DNA of 35,825 nucleotides. Origin: an uncultured Cytophaga sp. Its GTDB lineage: Bacteria; Bacteroidota; Bacteroidia; Cytophagales; Cytophagaceae. The stretch covers positions 1-35,825 of the forward strand of contig NZ_CALMGQ010000177.1 of the NCBI RefSeq assembly GCF_937863595.1. Direction: 5' to 3'. Every line of letters starts with the position of its first letter. Within the stretch, counting starts at the first letter, position 1. The translations under genes were made by a program, and so were the position numbers. The notes beneath the pieces were generated by a model that worked only from the letters and a program-made list of their open reading frames with translations, was not told the origin of the DNA and did no database searches. This document shows, one piece after another, positions 1 through 9,909 of the stretch.

Positions 1-551
1 TAGGTCGCTACCAAGCAACCGAATACAATATGGAATGGGAGTCGTTTATGTCAAAAACAGGATTTACTCAAGAAGAATTTGTTTCTAGAATGATAAGCAG
101 AAGACCCGTAGTAAAAGAAAACTTCGAAAAAAATGGCTTGATGTTGGGTTTATGGGATACCTATCGGATTAAATATTCATGGCGACCAAAGTTTGAGTTT
201 CCTGAAGGAAGTATTTCTGAGCTGATTCGGTTAAGAATGTTTAATGGAGAATATGAAGTATTATGGGGAGACAGATTCGTTAAAAACTCATTTGAAAAAC
301 GTGCCATAACCAATAGATGCAACCTGTTATGGACAGATGAAACTGGAAAGGAATATGGTGCCGAAGTTACGTTTGATGAAGCAGAAATATTCGAAGCGTT
401 CAAACTTATTTATGCAAAAGACAAAGAGCAAGATGCGGAGTTGGTTATCAAATATAATGATACACGTACATCCTTAGAATTTTATTTACGCAGTAAATCC
501 GAAGAAATTGAACTAGAAAAAACCAAAGTGAGTATTTTTAAACGAACCTAG
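1..551 (+). CDS. DUF2931-like lipoprotein, copy 1 of tandem array (5' end missing)
   Basis: The open frame runs in from the contig edge (first full codon at base 3), so the lipoprotein signal and N-terminal half lie outside the window; an internal ATG at 30 is not the true start. The visible part aligns without gaps to the C-terminal half of the two complete copies downstream, including the shared blocks LMLGLWDTYRIKYSWRPKF and NDTRTSLEFYLRSKSEEIEL. Its C-terminus is closer to copy 3 (1588-2622) than to its neighbour copy 2, which suggests gene conversion or a duplication order other than simple stepwise. The stop TAG shares its last base with the GTG start of the next copy. No catalytic motif is visible and the function is unknown; the DUF2931 assignment is from memory of that family. 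Confidence 0.8.
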   Translation, partial: GRYQATEYNMEWESFMSKTGFTQEEFVSRMISRRPVVKENFEKNGLMLGLWDTYRIKYSWRPKFEFPEGSISELIRLRMFNGEYEVLWGDRFVKNSFEKRAITNRCNLLWTDETGKEYGAEVTFDEAEIFEAFKLIYAKDKEQDAELVIKYNDTRTSLEFYLRSKSEEIELEKTKVSIFKRT

Positions 552-1588
552 TGAAAAATATTCTTTTCTATTTTATGATTTCATCGCTGCTACAGTTTAT
601 TGTTTCAGCATGCTCGCCATCTAAAACAAGTATGCAGAAAGAAACTATGAGTACACAGTTAGAATACGCATCGGGCATCTGCGCACCAGAATTATATCCA
701 GTACGAGTGCATAAAGGAGATTTTTATACAGCGGACGATTGGCTTCCATTGACTAAAGGTGGTGTTGTAGAAGCTGGTTGGGGTGATAATGGAATGAATA
801 TGAGTAGAAGTGGTATTATCCCGACTGGTTTTAAGGTTACCTATTTTTCTTATATGGAAAATAAATTTTACAAAGGAGATTTTGCTTTACCTTCAGATGC
901 AATACGGGATTTATTTAAGGAGGGTATGATTGGTTATAGAAGTAAACGCTACTCTACCTATGATGCTATGATTGTGGGCATGGCACCAGGTGGGGTATTG
1001 GTTGTTTGGATGCAAGGAATAGATAAGCAGATTGAAATAGGTAGGTATCAAGCAACCGAAACGGATATGGAATGGGAACATTTTATACCTAAAACGGGAT
1101 TTACTAGAGATGAATATGTTACCAATTTGATTAATAGAAGGCCTGAAGTAGTTGCCAACTTCCAAAAAAATGGTTTGATGTTGGGCTTATGGGATACCTA
1201 TCGGATTAAATATTCATGGCGTCCAAAATTTGAGTTTCCAGAAGGAAGTAAGGTTGAAGGTTTTGAATTAAGAATGTATATTGGAGAATATAATTTTATT
1301 TGGGGGGATAGATTGACTAAAAATGATTATGAAAAACGCGCAATAACTACAAGTATGGATTTGTTGTGGGCCGATGAAACAGGTCAAGATTTTGGAGCTG
1401 ATATATACTTTGATGAAGCAGAAATCTTTGAAGCCTACAAACTTATTTATAGAGACGATAAAGAACAAGATGCAGAATTGGTTATCAAATACAATGATAC
1501 ACGCACTTCATTAGAATTTTATCTACGCAGTAAATCAGAAGAAATAGAACTTGAAAAAATGAAAGTGAAAATCTATAAACGTACTTAG
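551..1588 (+). CDS. DUF2931-like lipoprotein, copy 2
   Basis: A 345-residue protein starting at GTG, chosen because it overlaps the upstream TAG by one base and opens directly with a lipoprotein signal peptide (charged MKN, hydrophobic stretch, lipobox VSAC with Cys21). The mature part is rich in Trp, Tyr and Gly and carries blocks expected of DUF2931: a GIIPTGFKVTYFSYMENKFY stretch near residue 90 and GMAPGGVLVVWMQG near residue 143. It was probably made as a membrane-anchored periplasmic protein. Residues about 231-300 differ strongly from copies 1 and 3 although flanking blocks are nearly identical. It is translated in series with copies 1 and 3, probably from one mRNA by stop-start coupling. 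No function can be given. Confidence 0.85.
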   Translation: MKNILFYFMISSLLQFIVSACSPSKTSMQKETMSTQLEYASGICAPELYPVRVHKGDFYTADDWLPLTKGGVVEAGWGDNGMNMSRSGIIPTGFKVTYFSYMENKFYKGDFALPSDAIRDLFKEGMIGYRSKRYSTYDAMIVGMAPGGVLVVWMQGIDKQIEIGRYQATETDMEWEHFIPKTGFTRDEYVTNLINRRPEVVANFQKNGLMLGLWDTYRIKYSWRPKFEFPEGSKVEGFELRMYIGEYNFIWGDRLTKNDYEKRAITTSMDLLWADETGQDFGADIYFDEAEIFEAYKLIYRDDKEQDAELVIKYNDTRTSLEFYLRSKSEEIELEKMKVKIYKRT

Positions 1589-2622
1589 TGAAAAATATTC
1601 TTTTCTATCTTATGATTTCATCGCTGCTACAGTTTATTGTTTCTGCATGTTCGCCATCCAAAAGAAGTGTACATACAGATTTTCGGCCACCATTAGAATA
1701 CGCATCGGGCATCTGCGCTCCCAAATTATATCCAATACGAGTACATACAGGAGATTTTTATACAGCGGACGATTGGCTGCCATTACCCAATGGAGGATTT
1801 GTAGATGCTGGATGGGGCAGTAATGGAATGAATATGAGTAGAAGTAGTATTATACCTACCGGGTTTAAGGTTACCTATTTTGCCTATATGGAAAATAAAT
1901 TTTATACGGCAAATTTTGCTTTACCCTCCGATACCATACGAAGTTTATTTAAAGAAGGGATGATTGACTATTTGACAAAAAAATATGATACCTATAGAGC
2001 CATGATTGTAGGAATGGCTCCTGGGGGAGTTTTGGTGGTTTGGATGCAAGGGTTTGATAAGCAAGTAGAAATCGGTCGCTATTTAGCGACAGAAACAGAA
2101 ATGAATTGGGAGTCTTTTATACCAAGAACAGGATTGACAAGAGAAGAATATGTGTTTAATTTAATTGATAGAAGACCAGTAGTAAAAGAAAACTTCCAAA
2201 AAAATGGATTAATGTTAGGTTTATGGGATACCTATCGGATTAAATATTCATGGCGTCCGAAGTTTGAGTTTCCCGAAGGAAGTATTTCTGAGCTGATTCG
2301 GTTGAGAATGTTTAATGGGGAATATGAAGTTTTATGGGGAGATAGATTTGTTGAAAATTCATTTGAAAAACGTGCTATTACCGAAAGATGCAACCTGTTA
2401 TGGACAGATGAAACTGGAAAGGAATATGGCGCCGAAGTTACGTTCGACGAAGCCGAAATATTTGAAGCGTTCAAACTTATTTATGTAAAAGACAAAGAGC
2501 AAGACGCAGAATTGATTATTAAGTATAATGATACGCGTACATCATTGGAATTTTATCTGCGCAGCAAATCAGAAGAGATTGAACTTGAAAAAACGAAAGT
2601 CAGTATTTTTAAACGTACCTAG
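1588..2622 (+). CDS. DUF2931-like lipoprotein, copy 3
   Basis: A 344-residue paralogue of the preceding gene, with the same GTG start overlapping the upstream TAG by one base and the same lipobox VSAC (Cys21). After the signal peptide a short variable linker (SPSKRSVHTDFRPP) differs from copy 2; from LEYASGICAP onward the two align along their length. The gene-to-gene period is 1037 bp then 1034 bp. Its C-terminal 170 residues nearly match copy 1. The stop codon again supplies the G of a GTG, but the fourth reading frame is truncated. Predicted exported lipoprotein, function unknown; multi-copy arrays of this kind often diversify, though nothing here proves selection. Confidence 0.85.
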   Translation: MKNILFYLMISSLLQFIVSACSPSKRSVHTDFRPPLEYASGICAPKLYPIRVHTGDFYTADDWLPLPNGGFVDAGWGSNGMNMSRSSIIPTGFKVTYFAYMENKFYTANFALPSDTIRSLFKEGMIDYLTKKYDTYRAMIVGMAPGGVLVVWMQGFDKQVEIGRYLATETEMNWESFIPRTGLTREEYVFNLIDRRPVVKENFQKNGLMLGLWDTYRIKYSWRPKFEFPEGSISELIRLRMFNGEYEVLWGDRFVENSFEKRAITERCNLLWTDETGKEYGAEVTFDEAEIFEAFKLIYVKDKEQDAELIIKYNDTRTSLEFYLRSKSEEIELEKTKVSIFKRT

Positions 2623-3148: not shown

Positions 3149-4135
3149 ATGAAAGAACAAATTTTGAATTATTTATCACGGATGGATCTCTTGCAAAAAA
3201 TAGACATCCTCCATGTGGTAGAAATCATTTTTGCTATATTAATTACTGCATCGCTAACATTTTTTATCTGGGGGAAATTAAAACCCGAAACGAATCTCAA
3301 AGAACTAAAATCACGCACCAATTCGTGGTGGGTGATGGTATTTCTATTTATTGCTGCAGTATTACTGGACAGGATGATTACATTTCCTGCGCTTGCATTA
3401 CTATCCTTTGTTGCATTTAGAGAGCTATACTCCATGATCGGTTTTCGGGATGTGGACAGAAGACCCATCTTTTGGGCATTCTTAGCAATTCCTGTCCAAT
3501 ATTATTTGGCCTACATCGGTTGGTATGAACTCTTCATCATCTTTATACCCGTTTGGATGTTCTTATTTATACCTGTTCGCATGGTGATTGCAGGTGAAAC
3601 GACTGGTATCATTAAATCCATGGCTTCCTTACAATGGTCCTTAATGATTACCGTGTATGGTCTTAGTCATTTGGCCTACTTTTTAGCCTTGCCCGAGGCA
3701 ACAAATCTAAGCGAAGGGAAAAGTTTTATAAACGGTGGACAAGGTCTATTGCTATTCGTGGTGTTTCTAACAGAAATCAACGATGTACTCCAATTTATGT
3801 GGGGTAAAATGTTAGGCAAGCATAAAATTACGCCTTCTGTAAGTCCGAATAAAACGTGGGAAGGCTTTATTGGCGGTGTTCTTAGTACAACAGTCATTAG
3901 TTATTTTATTGGCTTTTTAACTCCATTAACAGATATGCAAGTTGTTCTTGGGGGATTCATTATTGGCTGTACCGGCTTCTTTGGTGACATCGTAATGTCT
4001 GCTATAAAAAGAGATATTGGTGTTAAAGACACGGGTAGTACTATACCAGGCCATGGTGGAGTTCTAGACAGAATTGATTCGCTTACCTATACTGCTCCGA
4101 TATTTTTTCACTTTGTATACTACATCGTATTTTAA
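3149..4135 (+). CDS. ynbB: Phosphatidate cytidylyltransferase-family protein (CdsA/YnbB-like)
   Basis: A polytopic membrane protein of 328 residues. CdsA enzymes make CDP-diacylglycerol from phosphatidate and CTP. The C-terminal family signature is complete: SAIKRDIGVKD, then GHGGVLDRIDS, which carries the metal-binding Asp residues. The N-terminal part has several hydrophobic spans. Its neighbours (PlsC, a CDP-alcohol transferase, a hydrolase-methyltransferase and a PAP2-DSP protein) match the E. coli ynb genes, so this is more likely the YnbB-type paralogue than the housekeeping cdsA; E. coli YnbB has been linked to the glycolipid MPIase, from memory. The next gene starts on the base after the stop, which points to one operon. 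Confidence 0.85.
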   Translation: MKEQILNYLSRMDLLQKIDILHVVEIIFAILITASLTFFIWGKLKPETNLKELKSRTNSWWVMVFLFIAAVLLDRMITFPALALLSFVAFRELYSMIGFRDVDRRPIFWAFLAIPVQYYLAYIGWYELFIIFIPVWMFLFIPVRMVIAGETTGIIKSMASLQWSLMITVYGLSHLAYFLALPEATNLSEGKSFINGGQGLLLFVVFLTEINDVLQFMWGKMLGKHKITPSVSPNKTWEGFIGGVLSTTVISYFIGFLTPLTDMQVVLGGFIIGCTGFFGDIVMSAIKRDIGVKDTGSTIPGHGGVLDRIDSLTYTAPIFFHFVYYIVF

Positions 4136-4783
4136 ATGAAAAGAATCGTTTTAATTCTTAGTTATGGGTATCTAATTCGTTACTTCCTTCGAATCATCGT
4201 AGGGGTGAAGTGTTCGGATACGTCCTTTTTGAAAAAGGAAAAACAATTTATACTCATTGCAAATCACAACAGTCATTTAGATGCCATGTCTATTATGGCT
4301 TCCATGCCGAAGTCGATTGTACATAATGTGCGACCTGTTGCAGCCCAAGATTACTTTGGTAAAACAAAACGCCAAGAATGGTTCAGCAATTATTTTATCA
4401 ATACCTTATTGATTCAGCGCAAGCACGATAAAAGTTCGATACAAGATTCGCCCATGCATAAAATGGATGAAGCGCTTAAACAAGGTTTTTCATTGATTAT
4501 TTTCCCCGAAGGTTCGCGTGGAGAGCCAGGTGTCGCGCAGGAATTTAAAGCGGGTGTTGCGATGTTGTTGTTACAGAATCCTGAAATTCCATATATACCC
4601 ATTTACATGAAAAACATGGGGAAGGCTATGCCTAAAGGGGATAGTTTAATTGTGCCGCACGAAAGTACTATTGTATACGGTACACCAAATAAAATCACAC
4701 ATTTCACTGTCGACGAAATTCTGGCGTGTATGAAACAAGAAATGGAAGTCCTTCGCCAATCCTTAGAAAATACAAAATCATGA
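4136..4783 (+). CDS. 1-acyl-glycerol-3-phosphate acyltransferase family (PlsC-like)
   Basis: A 215-residue protein with both diagnostic acyltransferase blocks: NHNSHLD, containing the catalytic H44-x4-D49, and FPEGSRG at residues 123-129, which binds the glycerol phosphate. Such enzymes add an acyl chain to lysophosphatidate or to related lyso-lipids at the inner face of the membrane. The ATG follows the CdsA-like stop with no spacer, and the stop overlaps the next start (ATGA). In the operon it could supply the phosphatidate used by the cytidylyltransferase, or acylate the product lipid. E. coli ynbABCD itself has no plsC gene as far as I recall, so this is an addition to that set. Confidence 0.88.
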   Translation: MKRIVLILSYGYLIRYFLRIIVGVKCSDTSFLKKEKQFILIANHNSHLDAMSIMASMPKSIVHNVRPVAAQDYFGKTKRQEWFSNYFINTLLIQRKHDKSSIQDSPMHKMDEALKQGFSLIIFPEGSRGEPGVAQEFKAGVAMLLLQNPEIPYIPIYMKNMGKAMPKGDSLIVPHESTIVYGTPNKITHFTVDEILACMKQEMEVLRQSLENTKS

Positions 4784-5388
4784 TTTCAATTTATTCATTA
4801 AAGCCAAAGTTTCAAGCCTTGCTCAAACCCATCCTGGAATTTTTGCATCGCAAAGGAGTTACTGCCAATCAAATTACAATGACTTCTGTTTTTTGGTCCA
4901 TAGGCATTGCTATCTGCTTTTGGTATGCAGATCAATATTCCATTCTGTTTCTTGCCTTACCTATTGGTTTATTTGTACGCATGGCATTAAATGCCTTGGA
5001 TGGTATGATGGCACGCGTTTACAATCAACAATCTAAAAAAGGAGAAATATTAAATGAATTGGGAGATGTTATTTCAGACATCGCCTTGTTTTTTCCACTC
5101 TTGAAATTCGAATCACAAGCAATCTATGCCGTTGTTGTATTTATATGCTTAAGCATCATCAATGAATTTGGAGGCATACTCGCAAAGGTTGTATCTGGAG
5201 ACCGTCGCTACGATGGACCTATGGGCAAAAGCGATCGTGCATTTATGATTGGTTTGTATGGCTTATTGAGTTTTTTAGGCGTACATACATCGAGCTATTC
5301 GATTTATATTTTCGCGGCATTAATTCTATTATTAATACTCAGCACGTTTACTCGACTAAAAAAATCCTTGCTCATTATTAAAAAATAG
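4780..5388 (+). CDS. ynbA: CDP-alcohol phosphatidyltransferase, YnbA-like, variant metal motif
   Basis: A 202-residue membrane protein; the start at 4780 is chosen because its ATG overlaps the plsC stop as ATGA, whereas an in-frame ATG at 4726 would overlap plsC by 58 bases. The family motif is D-x2-DG-x2-AR-x8-G-x3-D-x3-D and transfers a phosphatidyl group from CDP-lipid to an alcohol. Here it reads N71-A-L-D74-G-M-M-A78-R79, G88, N92, D96: the first and third Asp are Asn. I recall the same NALDG and LNE.GD strings in E. coli YnbA, so this looks like a clade trait, not decay. Six hydrophobic spans are plausible. The alcohol substrate is unknown. Confidence 0.88.
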   Translation: MISIYSLKPKFQALLKPILEFLHRKGVTANQITMTSVFWSIGIAICFWYADQYSILFLALPIGLFVRMALNALDGMMARVYNQQSKKGEILNELGDVISDIALFFPLLKFESQAIYAVVVFICLSIINEFGGILAKVVSGDRRYDGPMGKSDRAFMIGLYGLLSFLGVHTSSYSIYIFAALILLLILSTFTRLKKSLLIIKK

Positions 5389-5488
5389 ACCACAATAACT
5401 AGGAAACCACCAAATCGCAGGGGATATGGTTTAGGATAACACATTGAAAAATCAGTATAGAAATAATTAACTTTTTATTAAATCAGAT

Positions 5489-7261
5489 ATGGAAAAAAAT
5501 AGAATAGCTTCGGAAAATACGTTTGTTAGTCACGATGGACAAGCAATTTTTTACCGCAATTGGAAAGAAACGACTCCAACAGCAGCAAAACGTGCAATTG
5601 TATTACTACACCGGGGACACGAACATTCAGGTCGAGTAGAGCATATTGTAAATGAATTGAATATGCCTGATACTCCGTTCTTCGCATGGGATGTACGTGG
5701 TTGTGGCCGTACAGAAGGTACGCGTGGTTATGCCAGTAGCTTTATGACTTGGGTTCAAGATTTAGATCAGTTCATTCAACACATACATCATACGCAGGGT
5801 ATACCCGTAGAAAACATTGTTGTAATTGCACAGAGTGTAGGAGCTGTCATTGCAGCAACGTGGGTACACGATTATGCACCAAAGATTAAAGCCTTAATCT
5901 TAGCTTCGCCTGCTTTTAGCGTGAAGTTGTATATTCCTTTTGCAGTAGAAGGGATTGCTTTATGGCAAAAAATGGCAGGTAAGTTTTTTGTAAAATCCTA
6001 TGTAAAAGGAAAACACTTAACGCACGATACAGAACGCGCTGCTTCCTATCATACAGACCCCTTGGTAGCATTGCCGATTGGCTCAAATGTCTTGTTGGAT
6101 TTATACACCACCTCTGATCGTGTGATTGCAGATGCTGGTGCGATTGTTACACCCGTACAAATGCTGATTTCGGGAGATGATTTTGTTGTTCGTAGAAAAC
6201 CACAAGAAGAGTTCTATACAAATTTGAGTTCCTCTATTAAAGAAAAACATATTCTAGAAGGATTCTTTCACGATACCTTGGGAGAAAAAGATCGTGCACA
6301 AGCATTTGATAAAATCAAAGCCTTTATTGCAAAGGTAGAATCCGCCAATGCACATACCAATTTATTGGATGCCGATAAGAAAGGATATACCTTCAATGAA
6401 TACCAAGAATTATTAAAACCCAAAGCATCTTCTTTTTCCAAACAAGTAAGTTTTGCCTTAACACGCGGCTCAATGAAATGGATGGGTAAAAATGCTTCCA
6501 AAGGATTGAAAATTGGTGTCGAAACGGGTTTTGATTCTGGTAGTTCCTTGGATTATGTATACCTCAATAAAGCACAAGGATTAGGCTTGTGGAAATACAT
6601 AGGCTTAGGAAAAGTAATTGATCGAGGGTATTTGGATAGCATCGGTTGGCAAGGGATTCGTGCCCGTAAACAAAACCTTGAAAAGCTTATTGGTAAATAC
6701 ATTGATGTGTTGAAGAAAGACGGACAATCTGTTCGTATCATGGATATTGCTTCTGGACATGGTCGCTATATTTTAGATGCCATACAGCCTAAACGCAATG
6801 ATGTAGAAGCAATTTTATTACGCGATTACAGCGATATCAATGTAAAGGCAGGTAGTCAAATGATCTTAGATCGTAATTTAAGTTCAAAGGCGCAGTTTAA
6901 AAATGCCAATGCATTTGATGAAGAAAGTATTGCTACAGAAGAAATCAAACCAACAATTGGTGTTGTTTCAGGAGTATATGAATTGTTTTCAGACAATAGT
7001 TTGTTGCAAGCATCTTTAAAAGGATTTAGTAGAGCAATACCACAAGGAGGCTATTTGATTTATACCAATCAACCTTGGCATCCACAAGTGGAGCTTATTG
7101 CGAGAACATTGAATAACCATTCAGGCGAAGATCGCTGGGTTATGCGTCGTCGTACACAAGCAGAGATGGATCAGTTGGTGGCACAAGCTGGTTTTGACAA
7201 GATTGAACAATTGCAAGACGAATGGGGCATTTTTACCGTTTCGGTTGCACGCAAAAAATAA
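5489..7261 (+). CDS. ynbC: Alpha/beta hydrolase fused to SAM methyltransferase (YnbC-like)
   Basis: A 590-residue two-domain soluble protein. Residues 1-285 form a lysophospholipase-type alpha/beta hydrolase (Hydrolase_4): oxyanion region LLHRGHEHSGR, nucleophile elbow AQSVG with Ser116, likely acid Asp230 or Asp231 in SGDD, and His261 in FFHD. Residues about 340-590 form a class I methyltransferase with SAM-binding motif DIASGHGRY (419-427) and an acidic loop at LRDYS (444-448), matching the Methyltransf_20 family that is typically joined to this hydrolase. The length and architecture match E. coli YnbC. It lies 100 bases after the CDP-alcohol transferase and ends at a strong terminator. A role in remodelling or methylating the lipid made by the operon is inference. 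Confidence 0.88.
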   Translation: MEKNRIASENTFVSHDGQAIFYRNWKETTPTAAKRAIVLLHRGHEHSGRVEHIVNELNMPDTPFFAWDVRGCGRTEGTRGYASSFMTWVQDLDQFIQHIHHTQGIPVENIVVIAQSVGAVIAATWVHDYAPKIKALILASPAFSVKLYIPFAVEGIALWQKMAGKFFVKSYVKGKHLTHDTERAASYHTDPLVALPIGSNVLLDLYTTSDRVIADAGAIVTPVQMLISGDDFVVRRKPQEEFYTNLSSSIKEKHILEGFFHDTLGEKDRAQAFDKIKAFIAKVESANAHTNLLDADKKGYTFNEYQELLKPKASSFSKQVSFALTRGSMKWMGKNASKGLKIGVETGFDSGSSLDYVYLNKAQGLGLWKYIGLGKVIDRGYLDSIGWQGIRARKQNLEKLIGKYIDVLKKDGQSVRIMDIASGHGRYILDAIQPKRNDVEAILLRDYSDINVKAGSQMILDRNLSSKAQFKNANAFDEESIATEEIKPTIGVVSGVYELFSDNSLLQASLKGFSRAIPQGGYLIYTNQPWHPQVELIARTLNNHSGEDRWVMRRRTQAEMDQLVAQAGFDKIEQLQDEWGIFTVSVARKK

Positions 7262-7287
7262 ATACAATCACATTTAAGAATGAAATG

Positions 7288-7322
7288 GCTACAAGTAACG
7301 CATATTACTTGTAGCTTTTTTT
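7288..7322 (+). terminator. Intrinsic terminator between ynbC- and ynbD-like genes
   Basis: Arms GCTACAAGTAA (7288-7298) and TTACTTGTAGC (7305-7315) form a perfect 11-bp stem with a 6-base loop, followed by seven T (7316-7322). The next start codon is only 20 bases away, so it either ends the first transcript or attenuates expression of the downstream phosphatase gene. Confidence 0.85.
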
Positions 7323-7341
7323 AATAATTTATAACCTACGC

Positions 7342-8661
7342 ATGCAAAACACGACAGAAGTTCCTAAAATACATTGGCTTAGTGGATTTATTTGGTTGGC
7401 TATATTAGCACCTTTATTTTTTATTGTATACGGCTGGGCAAATACCTATTCTGCAGGCTTACCTGTAGATGGAGTAAAGGAGTTTGTATATGATTGGGAG
7501 CGGCATATTCCGTTCATGCCTTGGACGATTTTACCGTATTGGAGCATTGATTTTTTATATGGAATATCCTTATTTCTTCCTTTAACAAAATTTGCGCAAC
7601 GTCAACATGCCTTGCGATTATTGGTGGCAACACCGATTGCTGCTGCATTCTTTTATTTTTATCCCTTAACCTTTTCTGGCGGCAGACCCGATGCAGAAGG
7701 TTTATGGAAAACCTTGTTTGATGCATTATTGGGTTTTGATAAACCCTTTAATCAATCGCCCTCACTACACATTATTTTATTGGTTATTATCTGGCAAATC
7801 TATTTGCCACAGTTTAAAAGAGTAGGGAAGTTATTGTGGAATGTTTGGTGCTTTTTAATTGGCATCTCTGTACTTACTACATTTCAACATCACTTTATTG
7901 ACATCCCCGCAGGCTTTTTAGTGGGCGTTGCAATTTGTTTTATATTTCCTTTGGTAAAAGAACATCAATGGAAATGGAATCAAATGAAAATAACGAAACT
8001 ATCTCGCTATTATTTGATTGCTGGTATTATACTATTAATAGGCGCGATGTACGCATCTTTTTGGCCCGCCTTAATCTTACTTTGGATTGGATTTTCCATG
8101 CTGGTAATTGGTTTGGGCTATCTGAATATGGGTGCTATTGTTTTTCAAAAGCAGGATAACGGAGCGTTTTCTTTTGCAGCAAAAACAATACACTTACCAT
8201 ATCGTACCATTAGTAAAACCGTTCGGTATTTCTTCTTTCCTTCGTACAAAGAGCCTCAGAAAATAACAGATAATCTATATCTAGGTGCGTATGGCATGGA
8301 TCATATGACTCCTTGTGATGCCATTTTTGATGTATGTTCCGAATACGAACGAGCAAATTATACGAAAGAACATTATGTAAATTATCCACTGATAGATTTA
8401 CAGGTGCCTTCAATAGATGAGCTTAAGATTGGGGTAGAGAAACTCGATGCCTTATTGCAAAACAATCGAGTGGTATTTATTCATTGTGCTTTAGGTATGT
8501 CACGGAGTGCAATATTGGTAATGGGTTGGTTACTGTATTCTAAAAAGGTACGGTCTGTTGAAGAAGCCATTCACTATTTTAAAGAACATAATTTCAAATC
8601 GAACGTATCTGAAAAACATATTGCGATGTTACATATGTATTCTAAACAAATTGCTCAATGA
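7342..8661 (+). CDS. ynbD: PAP2 phosphatase fused to dual-specificity phosphatase (YnbD-like)
   Basis: A 439-residue protein with about six to eight membrane spans in the first 260 residues and a cytosolic C-terminal domain. The N-terminal half carries PAP2 motifs PSLH (140-143) and H183-x3-D187. Residues about 303-439 form a dual-specificity phosphatase with the P-loop HCALGMSRS (Cys382, Arg388) and a likely general acid Asp352. The fusion and length match E. coli YnbD. A DSP-type phosphatase (mitochondrial PTPMT1) is known to remove phosphate from phosphatidylglycerophosphate, so an attractive inference is that this enzyme dephosphorylates the lipid product of the CDP-alcohol transferase. 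Its stop overlaps the next start (ATGA). Confidence 0.88.
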   Translation: MQNTTEVPKIHWLSGFIWLAILAPLFFIVYGWANTYSAGLPVDGVKEFVYDWERHIPFMPWTILPYWSIDFLYGISLFLPLTKFAQRQHALRLLVATPIAAAFFYFYPLTFSGGRPDAEGLWKTLFDALLGFDKPFNQSPSLHIILLVIIWQIYLPQFKRVGKLLWNVWCFLIGISVLTTFQHHFIDIPAGFLVGVAICFIFPLVKEHQWKWNQMKITKLSRYYLIAGIILLIGAMYASFWPALILLWIGFSMLVIGLGYLNMGAIVFQKQDNGAFSFAAKTIHLPYRTISKTVRYFFFPSYKEPQKITDNLYLGAYGMDHMTPCDAIFDVCSEYERANYTKEHYVNYPLIDLQVPSIDELKIGVEKLDALLQNNRVVFIHCALGMSRSAILVMGWLLYSKKVRSVEEAIHYFKEHNFKSNVSEKHIAMLHMYSKQIAQ

Positions 8662-9077
8662 CCGATCAAGAACGCAATATATGTCAGGTTGCATCTGCAG
8701 CCTTGTTGGGATTTAGCAGATTGGGTTTTGTAGTATTTATTACCACACCAGCACTATTCATACTGTTGCAACATAAAGAGGTAGAGTTGTTTCATATGAT
8801 AGCGATAGCGGTCTTTTTAGTTTCAGTATGCATTGTTGCATTAAAAAGTTGGCATATTTATTTTGATGCATTGTTATTTAAAACACTCGGATTAGGAACT
8901 GCAGGGATAGGAGAGATTGATTTATTGTTATTGAAAGTATTTAAAAAAGATATTCAAGGTAAACCATTAACCGAGCGAATAGATGCCTGCTATGCATTAT
9001 CTCGCAAGTTGTTTATTCTTGTTGGTGTACATGTATTGTTGTTTATAAGCATACTTATTTATTTACTGAATACGTAA
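8658..9077 (+). CDS. Small membrane protein at the end of the ynb-like operon
   Basis: A 139-residue protein whose ATG overlaps the preceding stop as ATGA, so it is almost certainly co-translated with the PAP2-DSP protein. It has three hydrophobic spans (roughly residues 16-36, 45-65 and 113-137) and a central soluble stretch with a Gly-rich turn (LGLGTAGIGEIDLLLLKVF). I recognise no family. Tight coupling suggests a partner or membrane anchor for the lipid enzymes; nothing in the sequence gives an activity. Confidence 0.75.
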   Translation: MTDQERNICQVASAALLGFSRLGFVVFITTPALFILLQHKEVELFHMIAIAVFLVSVCIVALKSWHIYFDALLFKTLGLGTAGIGEIDLLLLKVFKKDIQGKPLTERIDACYALSRKLFILVGVHVLLFISILIYLLNT

Positions 9078-9210: not shown

Positions 9211-9909
9211 ATGTACATTGTTTTTGACTATTTAAACTCCTTAAGTCTGTTTGCTGTATTTCTATTGTGTTTAATAGAAAATATCTTTATTGCGTTTAGC
9301 GCAATTTTTATTGGATTTGCAGTTGATGGTTTACTAAAGCAAATGAAACAATTGGTTTCAATCAAAGAACTCTATTGGGGACTTTCTACTATTTTTTTAA
9401 ATACCGTTGTAACGTTTACAGGTTATCTATTATATAAATATAACTTCATTCAATTTGAATTGGGATTTACTATAAGTGATTTTGTCGTAGATTTTATACT
9501 ATTATTTATAGCGATGGATTTTTTGATGTATGTATTTCATTATATAGCCCATAAAATTTTATTTCTCAATCAATTCCATGAGCTGCATCATGAGTACGAT
9601 TCACCCACAGCGTTTTCATTATTTGTGCTACATCCTATAGAAGTAATGGGTTTTGGAAGTATTTGGTTGATGTTATTATACCTAGGCGAATTTTCTTTCT
9701 ATGCAATTATGGCCTATCTAATTTTGAATGTAATGATGGGGATGATTGGTCATCTGAGAAAAGAATTTATACCTGATTTTCTTAAAAATAACACGATGTT
9801 TAAGTGGATTGCGAATACCGGTTTTCATGTCGAACATCATCAAAACGATGTACACAATTATGGTTTTTACACGAAGGTTTGGGATCGAATATTTGGGACG
9901 TTGAAATAA
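9211..9909 (+). CDS. Sterol desaturase / fatty acid hydroxylase family protein
   Basis: A 232-residue membrane protein with the three histidine boxes of the integral-membrane diiron hydroxylases: H110YIAH114, H123ELHH127 and H206VEHH210, plus H141, H181 and H216. Such enzymes use O2 and two irons to hydroxylate or desaturate lipids, sterols or carotenoids. Hydrophobic spans occupy about residues 8-40, 55-75, 90-110 and 140-180. It follows the lipid operon but has its own promoter, with a hairpin in between, so any link to that pathway is only positional. The substrate cannot be told from the sequence. Confidence 0.88.
   Translation: MYIVFDYLNSLSLFAVFLLCLIENIFIAFSAIFIGFAVDGLLKQMKQLVSIKELYWGLSTIFLNTVVTFTGYLLYKYNFIQFELGFTISDFVVDFILLFIAMDFLMYVFHYIAHKILFLNQFHELHHEYDSPTAFSLFVLHPIEVMGFGSIWLMLLYLGEFSFYAIMAYLILNVMMGMIGHLRKEFIPDFLKNNTMFKWIANTGFHVEHHQNDVHNYGFYTKVWDRIFGTLK

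Follow-up and report, generated by a model that had tools for sequence, protein, structure and literature searches.

The stretch of DNA analysed here, referred to as the window, covers positions 1 to 35,825 of contig NZ_CALMGQ010000177.1 of an uncultured Cytophaga sp. Six of its genes, at 3149-9077 on the plus strand, probably form an Arc1/Ynb-type specialised phospholipid module that serves to survive phospholipase attack by competitors through lipid repair or replacement, a reading to which we give a probability of about 0.6. The evidence is strong that the window genes belong to a Ynb/Arc1 module. We infer the defence role of this copy by analogy, the defence phenotype having been shown for the counterpart in Pseudomonas aeruginosa (PMC8926400).

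A ynbABCD-type lipid pathway had been recognised in this region by a sequence-only reading of the DNA, and all of its genes were found in place. The Pfam matches were CTP_transf_1 (E 9e-64) for YnbB, Acyltransferase (9e-17) for PlsC, CDP-OH_P_transf (2e-9) for YnbA, Hydrolase_4 (6e-61) and Methyltransf_20 (1e-123) for YnbC, and DSPc (1e-15) for YnbD, in which PAP2 scores below the cut-off; no Pfam family matched the small membrane protein at 8658-9077. Full-length BLAST identities to the Escherichia coli K-12 proteins are 43% for YnbB, 44% for YnbA, 49% for YnbC and 38% for YnbD, so that the similarity is at the level of orthology and not a chance match of the parts list. The three abutting or overlapping junctions (4135/4136, and ATGA at 4780-4783 and at 8658-8661) are those that had been described. 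The remaining two are gapped, with 100 bp separating ynbA from ynbC and 80 bp separating ynbC from ynbD, and the latter gap contains a strong terminator-like hairpin (7287-7316, folding energy −16.8 kcal/mol, z −5.4). At least two transcription units are therefore likely, of which ynbD and the small gene may form the second, and the single operon that had been envisaged through YnbC and YnbD is probably not transcribed without interruption. The start of ynbA is the ATG at 4780 (MISIY, kept in relatives) and not the mechanically listed GTG at 4726. The GC content of the module differs only slightly (37% vs 34%).

Table 1. Features of the module and of the array upstream of it (window coordinates)
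Feature	Position	Strand	Evidence
Third DUF2931-array gene, C-terminal part, cut by contig end	30..551	+	91% identical to C-terminal half of copy 2
DUF2931 lipoprotein copy 1, Tle1-immunity-like	551..1588	+	PF11153 E 2e-34; lipoprotein-like N-terminus
DUF2931 lipoprotein copy 2, 77% identical to copy 1	1588..2622	+	PF11153 E 2.4e-30
YnbB-type CDP-diacylglycerol synthase, CdsA paralogue, Arc1F-like	3149..4135	+	PF01148, BLAST, tree
PlsC-type lysophospholipid acyltransferase	4136..4783	+	PF01553; NHNSHLD and FPEGSR motifs intact
YnbA-type CDP-alcohol phosphotransferase, Asn at D1 and D3	4780..5388	+	PF01066, BLAST, alignment
YnbC, fusion of monoacylglycerol-lipase-like hydrolase and Methyltransf_20 S-adenosylmethionine (SAM) methyltransferase	5489..7261	+	BLAST, Pfam
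Terminator-like hairpin, ynbC/ynbD gap	7287..7316	+	12-bp stem, then T-run
YnbD, fusion of PAP2-superfamily membrane domain and dual-specificity phosphatase (DSP)	7342..8661	+	BLAST, DSPc
Small three-helix membrane protein, sixth module member	8658..9077	+	Position in relatives, hhalign

The YnbB-type protein has an intact CdsA signature (SAIKRDIGVKD..GHGG.LDRID), and outside the module the genome also encodes its own housekeeping CdsA and a PssA-like CDP-alcohol transferase. That the CdsA-like gene is set apart from housekeeping cdsA was borne out by a maximum-likelihood tree, in which the YnbB-type proteins are separated from 19 Bacteroidota housekeeping CdsA with support of 100/100, and the housekeeping CdsA of E. 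coli, on a long branch, falls outside the YnbB types. YnbB-type CdsA thus forms a clade of its own.

The class I CDP-alcohol phosphotransferase motif, D1xxD2G1xxAR...G2xxxD3xxxD4, contains eight residues described as absolutely conserved; in the Mycobacterium tuberculosis phosphatidylinositol-phosphate (PIP) synthase D1, D2 and D3 are ligands of Mg-1, D3 also binds Mg-2, and D4 is the proposed base, its change to Asn nearly abolishing activity (PMC4634129, PMC6506517). In the window YnbA, D2, G1, A, G2 and D4 are retained and Asn replaces D1 (N71) and D3 (N92), with an Arg (R67), invariant in YnbA-type proteins, four residues ahead of the D1 position. The complete eight-residue motif is present neither in this protein nor in any relative examined. 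Both Asn residues and the invariant Arg occur in all 22 aligned YnbA-type sequences, that of E. coli included, and in six further members of a second subfamily, giving 28 of 28 loci in two subfamilies (two near-identical pairs, L035/L049 and L085/L090, are among them). Asp occupies both positions in 23/23 other CDP-alcohol transferase loci from Bacteroidota, as it does in E. coli PgsA and in the PssA-like protein of this genome. The Asn/Asn pair is thus a hallmark of the family and not decay, and it contradicts the claim that all eight residues of the motif are absolutely conserved. It could mean a single metal, a shifted site or a different acceptor. The second subfamily, with the motif CNLxDGMVA...G...N, always stands beside a YnbB-type CdsA and PlsC.

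The scores of YnbA against curated models bear on what it might transfer: 26 bits against a cut-off of 109 for pgsA, 58 against 170 for PIPSynth and 72 against 180 for archaetidylinositol-phosphate synthase, so that no cut-off is reached. As the latter two are its best NCBIfam models, and PIP synthases are its closest solved structures, YnbA could be an inositol-phosphate transferase in a phosphatidylinositol-type pathway with YnbD as the PIP phosphatase. We consider this very improbable, because all of the scores are well under the cut-offs and D1 and D3 are absent; E. coli, moreover, which carries the pathway, is not known to make inositol lipids.

The hydrolase triad of YnbC (S116/D231/H261) and its SAM motif (DIASGHGRY) are intact, and the closest solved structures to the hydrolase are monoacylglycerol lipases. 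An AlphaFold model of YnbC built from two sequences was poor (pLDDT, the predicted local distance difference test, of 43). A YnbC-like protein of Kosakonia cowanii (L039 2874-8599) has a dead hydrolase (Ser to His) and an intact methyltransferase, and its locus also holds ACP, KAS, MaoC, FabG and Metal_hydrol genes. The place of this protein beside genes of fatty-acid synthesis hints at a methyl acceptor of acyl origin, although a single locus is too little for a claim.

In the DSP domain of YnbD the Cx5R motif is intact (HCALGMSRS) and C382, R388 and D352 are invariant, as in dual-specificity phosphatases. Compared with the PAP2 motifs KX6RP, PSGH and SRX5HX3D, its membrane domain keeps RP, PSLH and HX3D (QHHFID) and departs from the canonical phosphatase motifs in having neither the Lys of motif 1 nor the Arg of motif 3; transfer of phosphate is therefore as likely as a phosphatase role. 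The sixth protein was aligned with an alphaproteobacterial set by hhalign with a score of 44.5 (E 5e-7), against 10-15 for shuffled controls. Its match to the Burkholderia counterpart is a weak profile match, and the Citrobacter counterpart is undetectable by sequence and was assigned by position and helix pattern only.

These domains also bear on a second route to phosphatidylglycerol (PG), in which YnbA would make phosphatidylglycerol phosphate (PGP) from CDP-diacylglycerol and glycerol-3-phosphate, YnbD would dephosphorylate it as PTPMT1 does, and YnbC would modify the PG. The DSP with its Cx5R resembles PTEN/PTPMT1-type enzymes, no PgsA-like gene was found in the genome besides the PssA-like one, and four arc1 products are homologous to enzymes of PG synthesis (PMC8926400). 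Nevertheless the route seems improbable to us, as YnbA falls well short of the pgsA cut-off and lacks D1 and D3, and as no YnbD accompanies the genes in Flavobacterium, in Caballeronia or in the six core-cassette Bacteroidota genomes. The PGP-like scheme of the sequence-only reading consequently stands as one option, weakened by the two lost aspartates, by the non-canonical PAP2 residues and by phosphatase and methylation steps that look accessory in relatives.

The neighbourhood of the module is conserved elsewhere. All six genes are present, in varied orders and strands, on plasmids of Shinella, Rhizobium, Roseateles, Burkholderia ambifaria and Citrobacter (IncF), and in all five a small 'hypothetical protein' is encoded directly after YnbD. 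PlsC and the small membrane protein, which had been taken for a local novelty, therefore belong to the regular set of a six-gene module that is widespread. Since such modules occur on plasmids of Alpha-, Beta- and Gammaproteobacteria, E. coli K-12 ynbABCD is the reduced form. Other relatives are also incomplete: Flavobacterium sp. ZT3R18, the sole match in a scan of genome contigs with a single-sequence query, has CdsA-PlsC-YnbA-YnbC at 70-78% identity between ordinary genes, with no YnbD nearby; Pseudanabaena has the methyltransferase without the hydrolase; Fusobacterium has YnbC-YnbA-YnbB and, far from these, a PAP2 that stands alone; and Caballeronia has transferase, PlsC and CdsA only. As the DSP, and even the whole of YnbD and the methyltransferase, are absent in many relatives, the phosphatase and methylation steps are accessory. 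Two E. coli plasmids (L035 and L049) carry transferase-CdsA-PlsC-YnbC with YnbD broken or missing, and L035 has colicin M genes nearby.

Among 395 Bacteroidota genomes seven matched the YnbA profile at E < 1e-66 and the rest lay above 1e-13, a clean gap. The six besides the source genome carry a core cassette of transferase, CdsA and PlsC, often beside an alpha/beta hydrolase of a different subfamily. The YnbB-PlsC pair occurs with the second transferase subfamily in two genomes of the same family and in Vibrio, Bacteroides finegoldii, Rhizobium, Paracoccus and Azospirillum. A full-length Methyltransf_20 was found in 1/395 of the genomes, the source genome alone; the first matches in the others were generic methyltransferases. 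Its absence from two genomes of the same genus and 16 others of the same family is the ground on which horizontal gain of the module is suggested. A phage-borne origin was dropped, as there were no relatives in viral contigs or phages. PADLOC has no model for any module protein. In Azospirillum B510 an LplT-Aas gene overlaps a plasmid-borne transferase-PlsC-CdsA cassette (L131 2171-7900); with a score of 1500 bits, where the cut-off is 1349, it encodes a true LplT-Aas acyl-ACP phospholipid O-acyltransferase, and the overlap links the core cassette to lysophospholipid repair.

The tandem DUF2931 array (30-2622) stands directly upstream of the module. In Aeromonas hydrophila, DUF2931 proteins confer immunity to the phospholipase effector Tle1 (PMC7245790), and DUF2931 has been reported beside the Tle1 of Vibrio cholerae (PMC13133936). 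The genome has nine DUF2931 matches, and the three other arrays each adjoin a Tle1-like catalytic domain, one of them with an internal stop; no Tle1 effector was found on the window contig, which opens within the array. Chance adjacency of array and module was put at about 0.2% (a post hoc figure, from about four arrays and an estimated 3,500 or so genes). A Bacteroidota-type TssC of the type VI secretion system (T6SS) is present in the genome. Another contig, C81 (L125, G000:C81:1-3300), ends inside a DUF2931 copy of an array beside a Tle1-like domain; it may be a physical neighbour, but a join to the window is not claimed, since only about 54 bp are identical to the window start before the copies diverge. 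On Moraxella osloensis pNP7-2 a short DUF2235 (Tle1-family) gene (L037 3135-3422) lies near a YnbA-YnbC cluster, with insertion sequence elements around. On the other side of the window module, 133 bp 3' of it, there is an FA_hydroxylase (sterol desaturase family) gene (9211-9909) that was not seen in relatives.

The link to competition comes from P. aeruginosa. The arc1A-F genes (PA2541-36) are a Gac/Rsm-regulated six-gene operon of very low basal expression that protects against the T6SS of Burkholderia thailandensis; five of its genes relate to phospholipids and four are similar to enzymes of PG synthesis (PMC8926400, Ting et al.). Against the lipase effectors TseL and Tle1, arc1A was needed for resistance to be complete, in an auxiliary role beside arc3A (PMC12663445). 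The published primers give PA2541 the N-terminus MISVYQL, with which a Bacteroidota YnbA also starts (MISVYQLKP) and which closely resembles MISIYSL of the window protein; they also give an internal ALIRTM, which fits the conserved Arg region of YnbA. Gene number and composition agree as well, and the A-to-F order of the PAO1 annotation fits too, as background and not as a test. The window module is very probably of the same kind as arc1A-F, to judge by the primer-derived termini and the published description. As arc1A-F has a published antagonism-defence phenotype, a biological role can now be proposed, by analogy, for the ynbABCD-type pathway.

If the module does counter phospholipases, the order of steps and substrates that we infer is as follows. 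The monoacylglycerol-lipase-like domain of YnbC and PlsC would trim and then re-acylate damaged lipid, the YnbB-type synthase would convert phosphatidic acid to CDP-diacylglycerol, and a head group would be attached by the YnbA-type transferase, whose active site carries the Asn/Asn pair. Phosphate would then be removed or moved by the DSP domain of YnbD, the PAP2 domain or both, and the methyltransferase may, together with the small membrane protein, complete or organise the product, a lipid that would repair or replace bulk phospholipid, or withstand lipases. The head group is unreadable from sequence, and, in line with the sequence-only reading, no paper was found that names the product of the ynb pathway.

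Several points weigh against the main reading. PA2536-41 were compared with the window by primer-derived termini only, and the part of arc1A against lipases is described as auxiliary (PMC12663445). Adjacency to DUF2931 is confined to the window, and the Flavobacterium relative has no such neighbours. TssC is absent from ten other genomes, two of the same genus and eight that carry the core cassette, so the cassette can do without a T6SS in its host and may have some other routine function. E. coli YnbB, finally, has been tied to the glycolipid MPIase (PMC6362211).

The carriers without TssC, the frequency of the cassette on Rhizobium and Paracoccus plasmids and the ordinary genes that flank the Flavobacterium copy would all suit a special membrane lipid that is made constitutively, used in envelope adaptation or plasmid and symbiosis fitness without dedicated defence, beside which the DUF2931 genes would be coincidental. 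This we regard as possible but unlikely, given the phenotype published for Arc1 and its very low basal expression in P. aeruginosa (PMC8926400), the joining of the Azospirillum cassette to Aas and the position of the window module directly against genes of Tle1-immunity type. A back-up route to MPIase, the role suggested for YnbB of E. coli, is in our view very improbable: YnbB overproduction raises MPIase, but ynbB deletion leaves it unchanged (PMC6362211), and such a route leaves no role for YnbA, PlsC, YnbC or YnbD.

The defence reading links three puzzles, the uncharacterised E. coli ynbABCD, P. aeruginosa Arc1 and the DUF2931/Tle1 loci of Bacteroidota, and makes the Arc1 lipid, and whether it blunts phospholipase effectors, testable in E. 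coli K-12. A more speculative extension, which we hold only tentatively, is that YnbA/Arc1A enzymes are a distinct class of CDP-alcohol phosphotransferase, in which the usual four-aspartate, two-metal site has given way to Asn-Asp-Asn-Asp, preceded at a distance of one helical turn by an invariant Arg, and which uses one metal or other acceptor chemistry. With YnbB and PlsC they might make an undescribed phospholipid against phospholipase weapons, a mobile lipid-based immunity against bacterial competitors that extends from Proteobacteria and cyanobacteria to Bacteroidota.

Compared with known systems, the module shares four full-length relatives, 38-49% identical, with E. coli K-12 ynbABCD (b1408-b1411), which has a different gene order and neither PlsC nor the small membrane protein. 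It resembles Arc1 in its six genes and phospholipid-related composition, and the N-terminus of Arc1A fits the YnbA family; Arc1 is however under Gac/Rsm control in Pseudomonas, whereas the window copy belongs to Bacteroidota and has a DUF2931 array upstream. The core cassettes of Bacteroides, Rhizobium, Paracoccus, Azospirillum and Vibrio have homologous YnbB and PlsC and the same Asn/Asn in the transferase, but lack YnbC, YnbD and the small protein, and several have the second transferase subfamily (about 25% identity). LplT-Aas repair, encoded with the cassette in Azospirillum, is alike in its proposed purpose of coping with phospholipase damage, although its enzymes differ from those of the module, as Aas re-acylates lysolipids directly.

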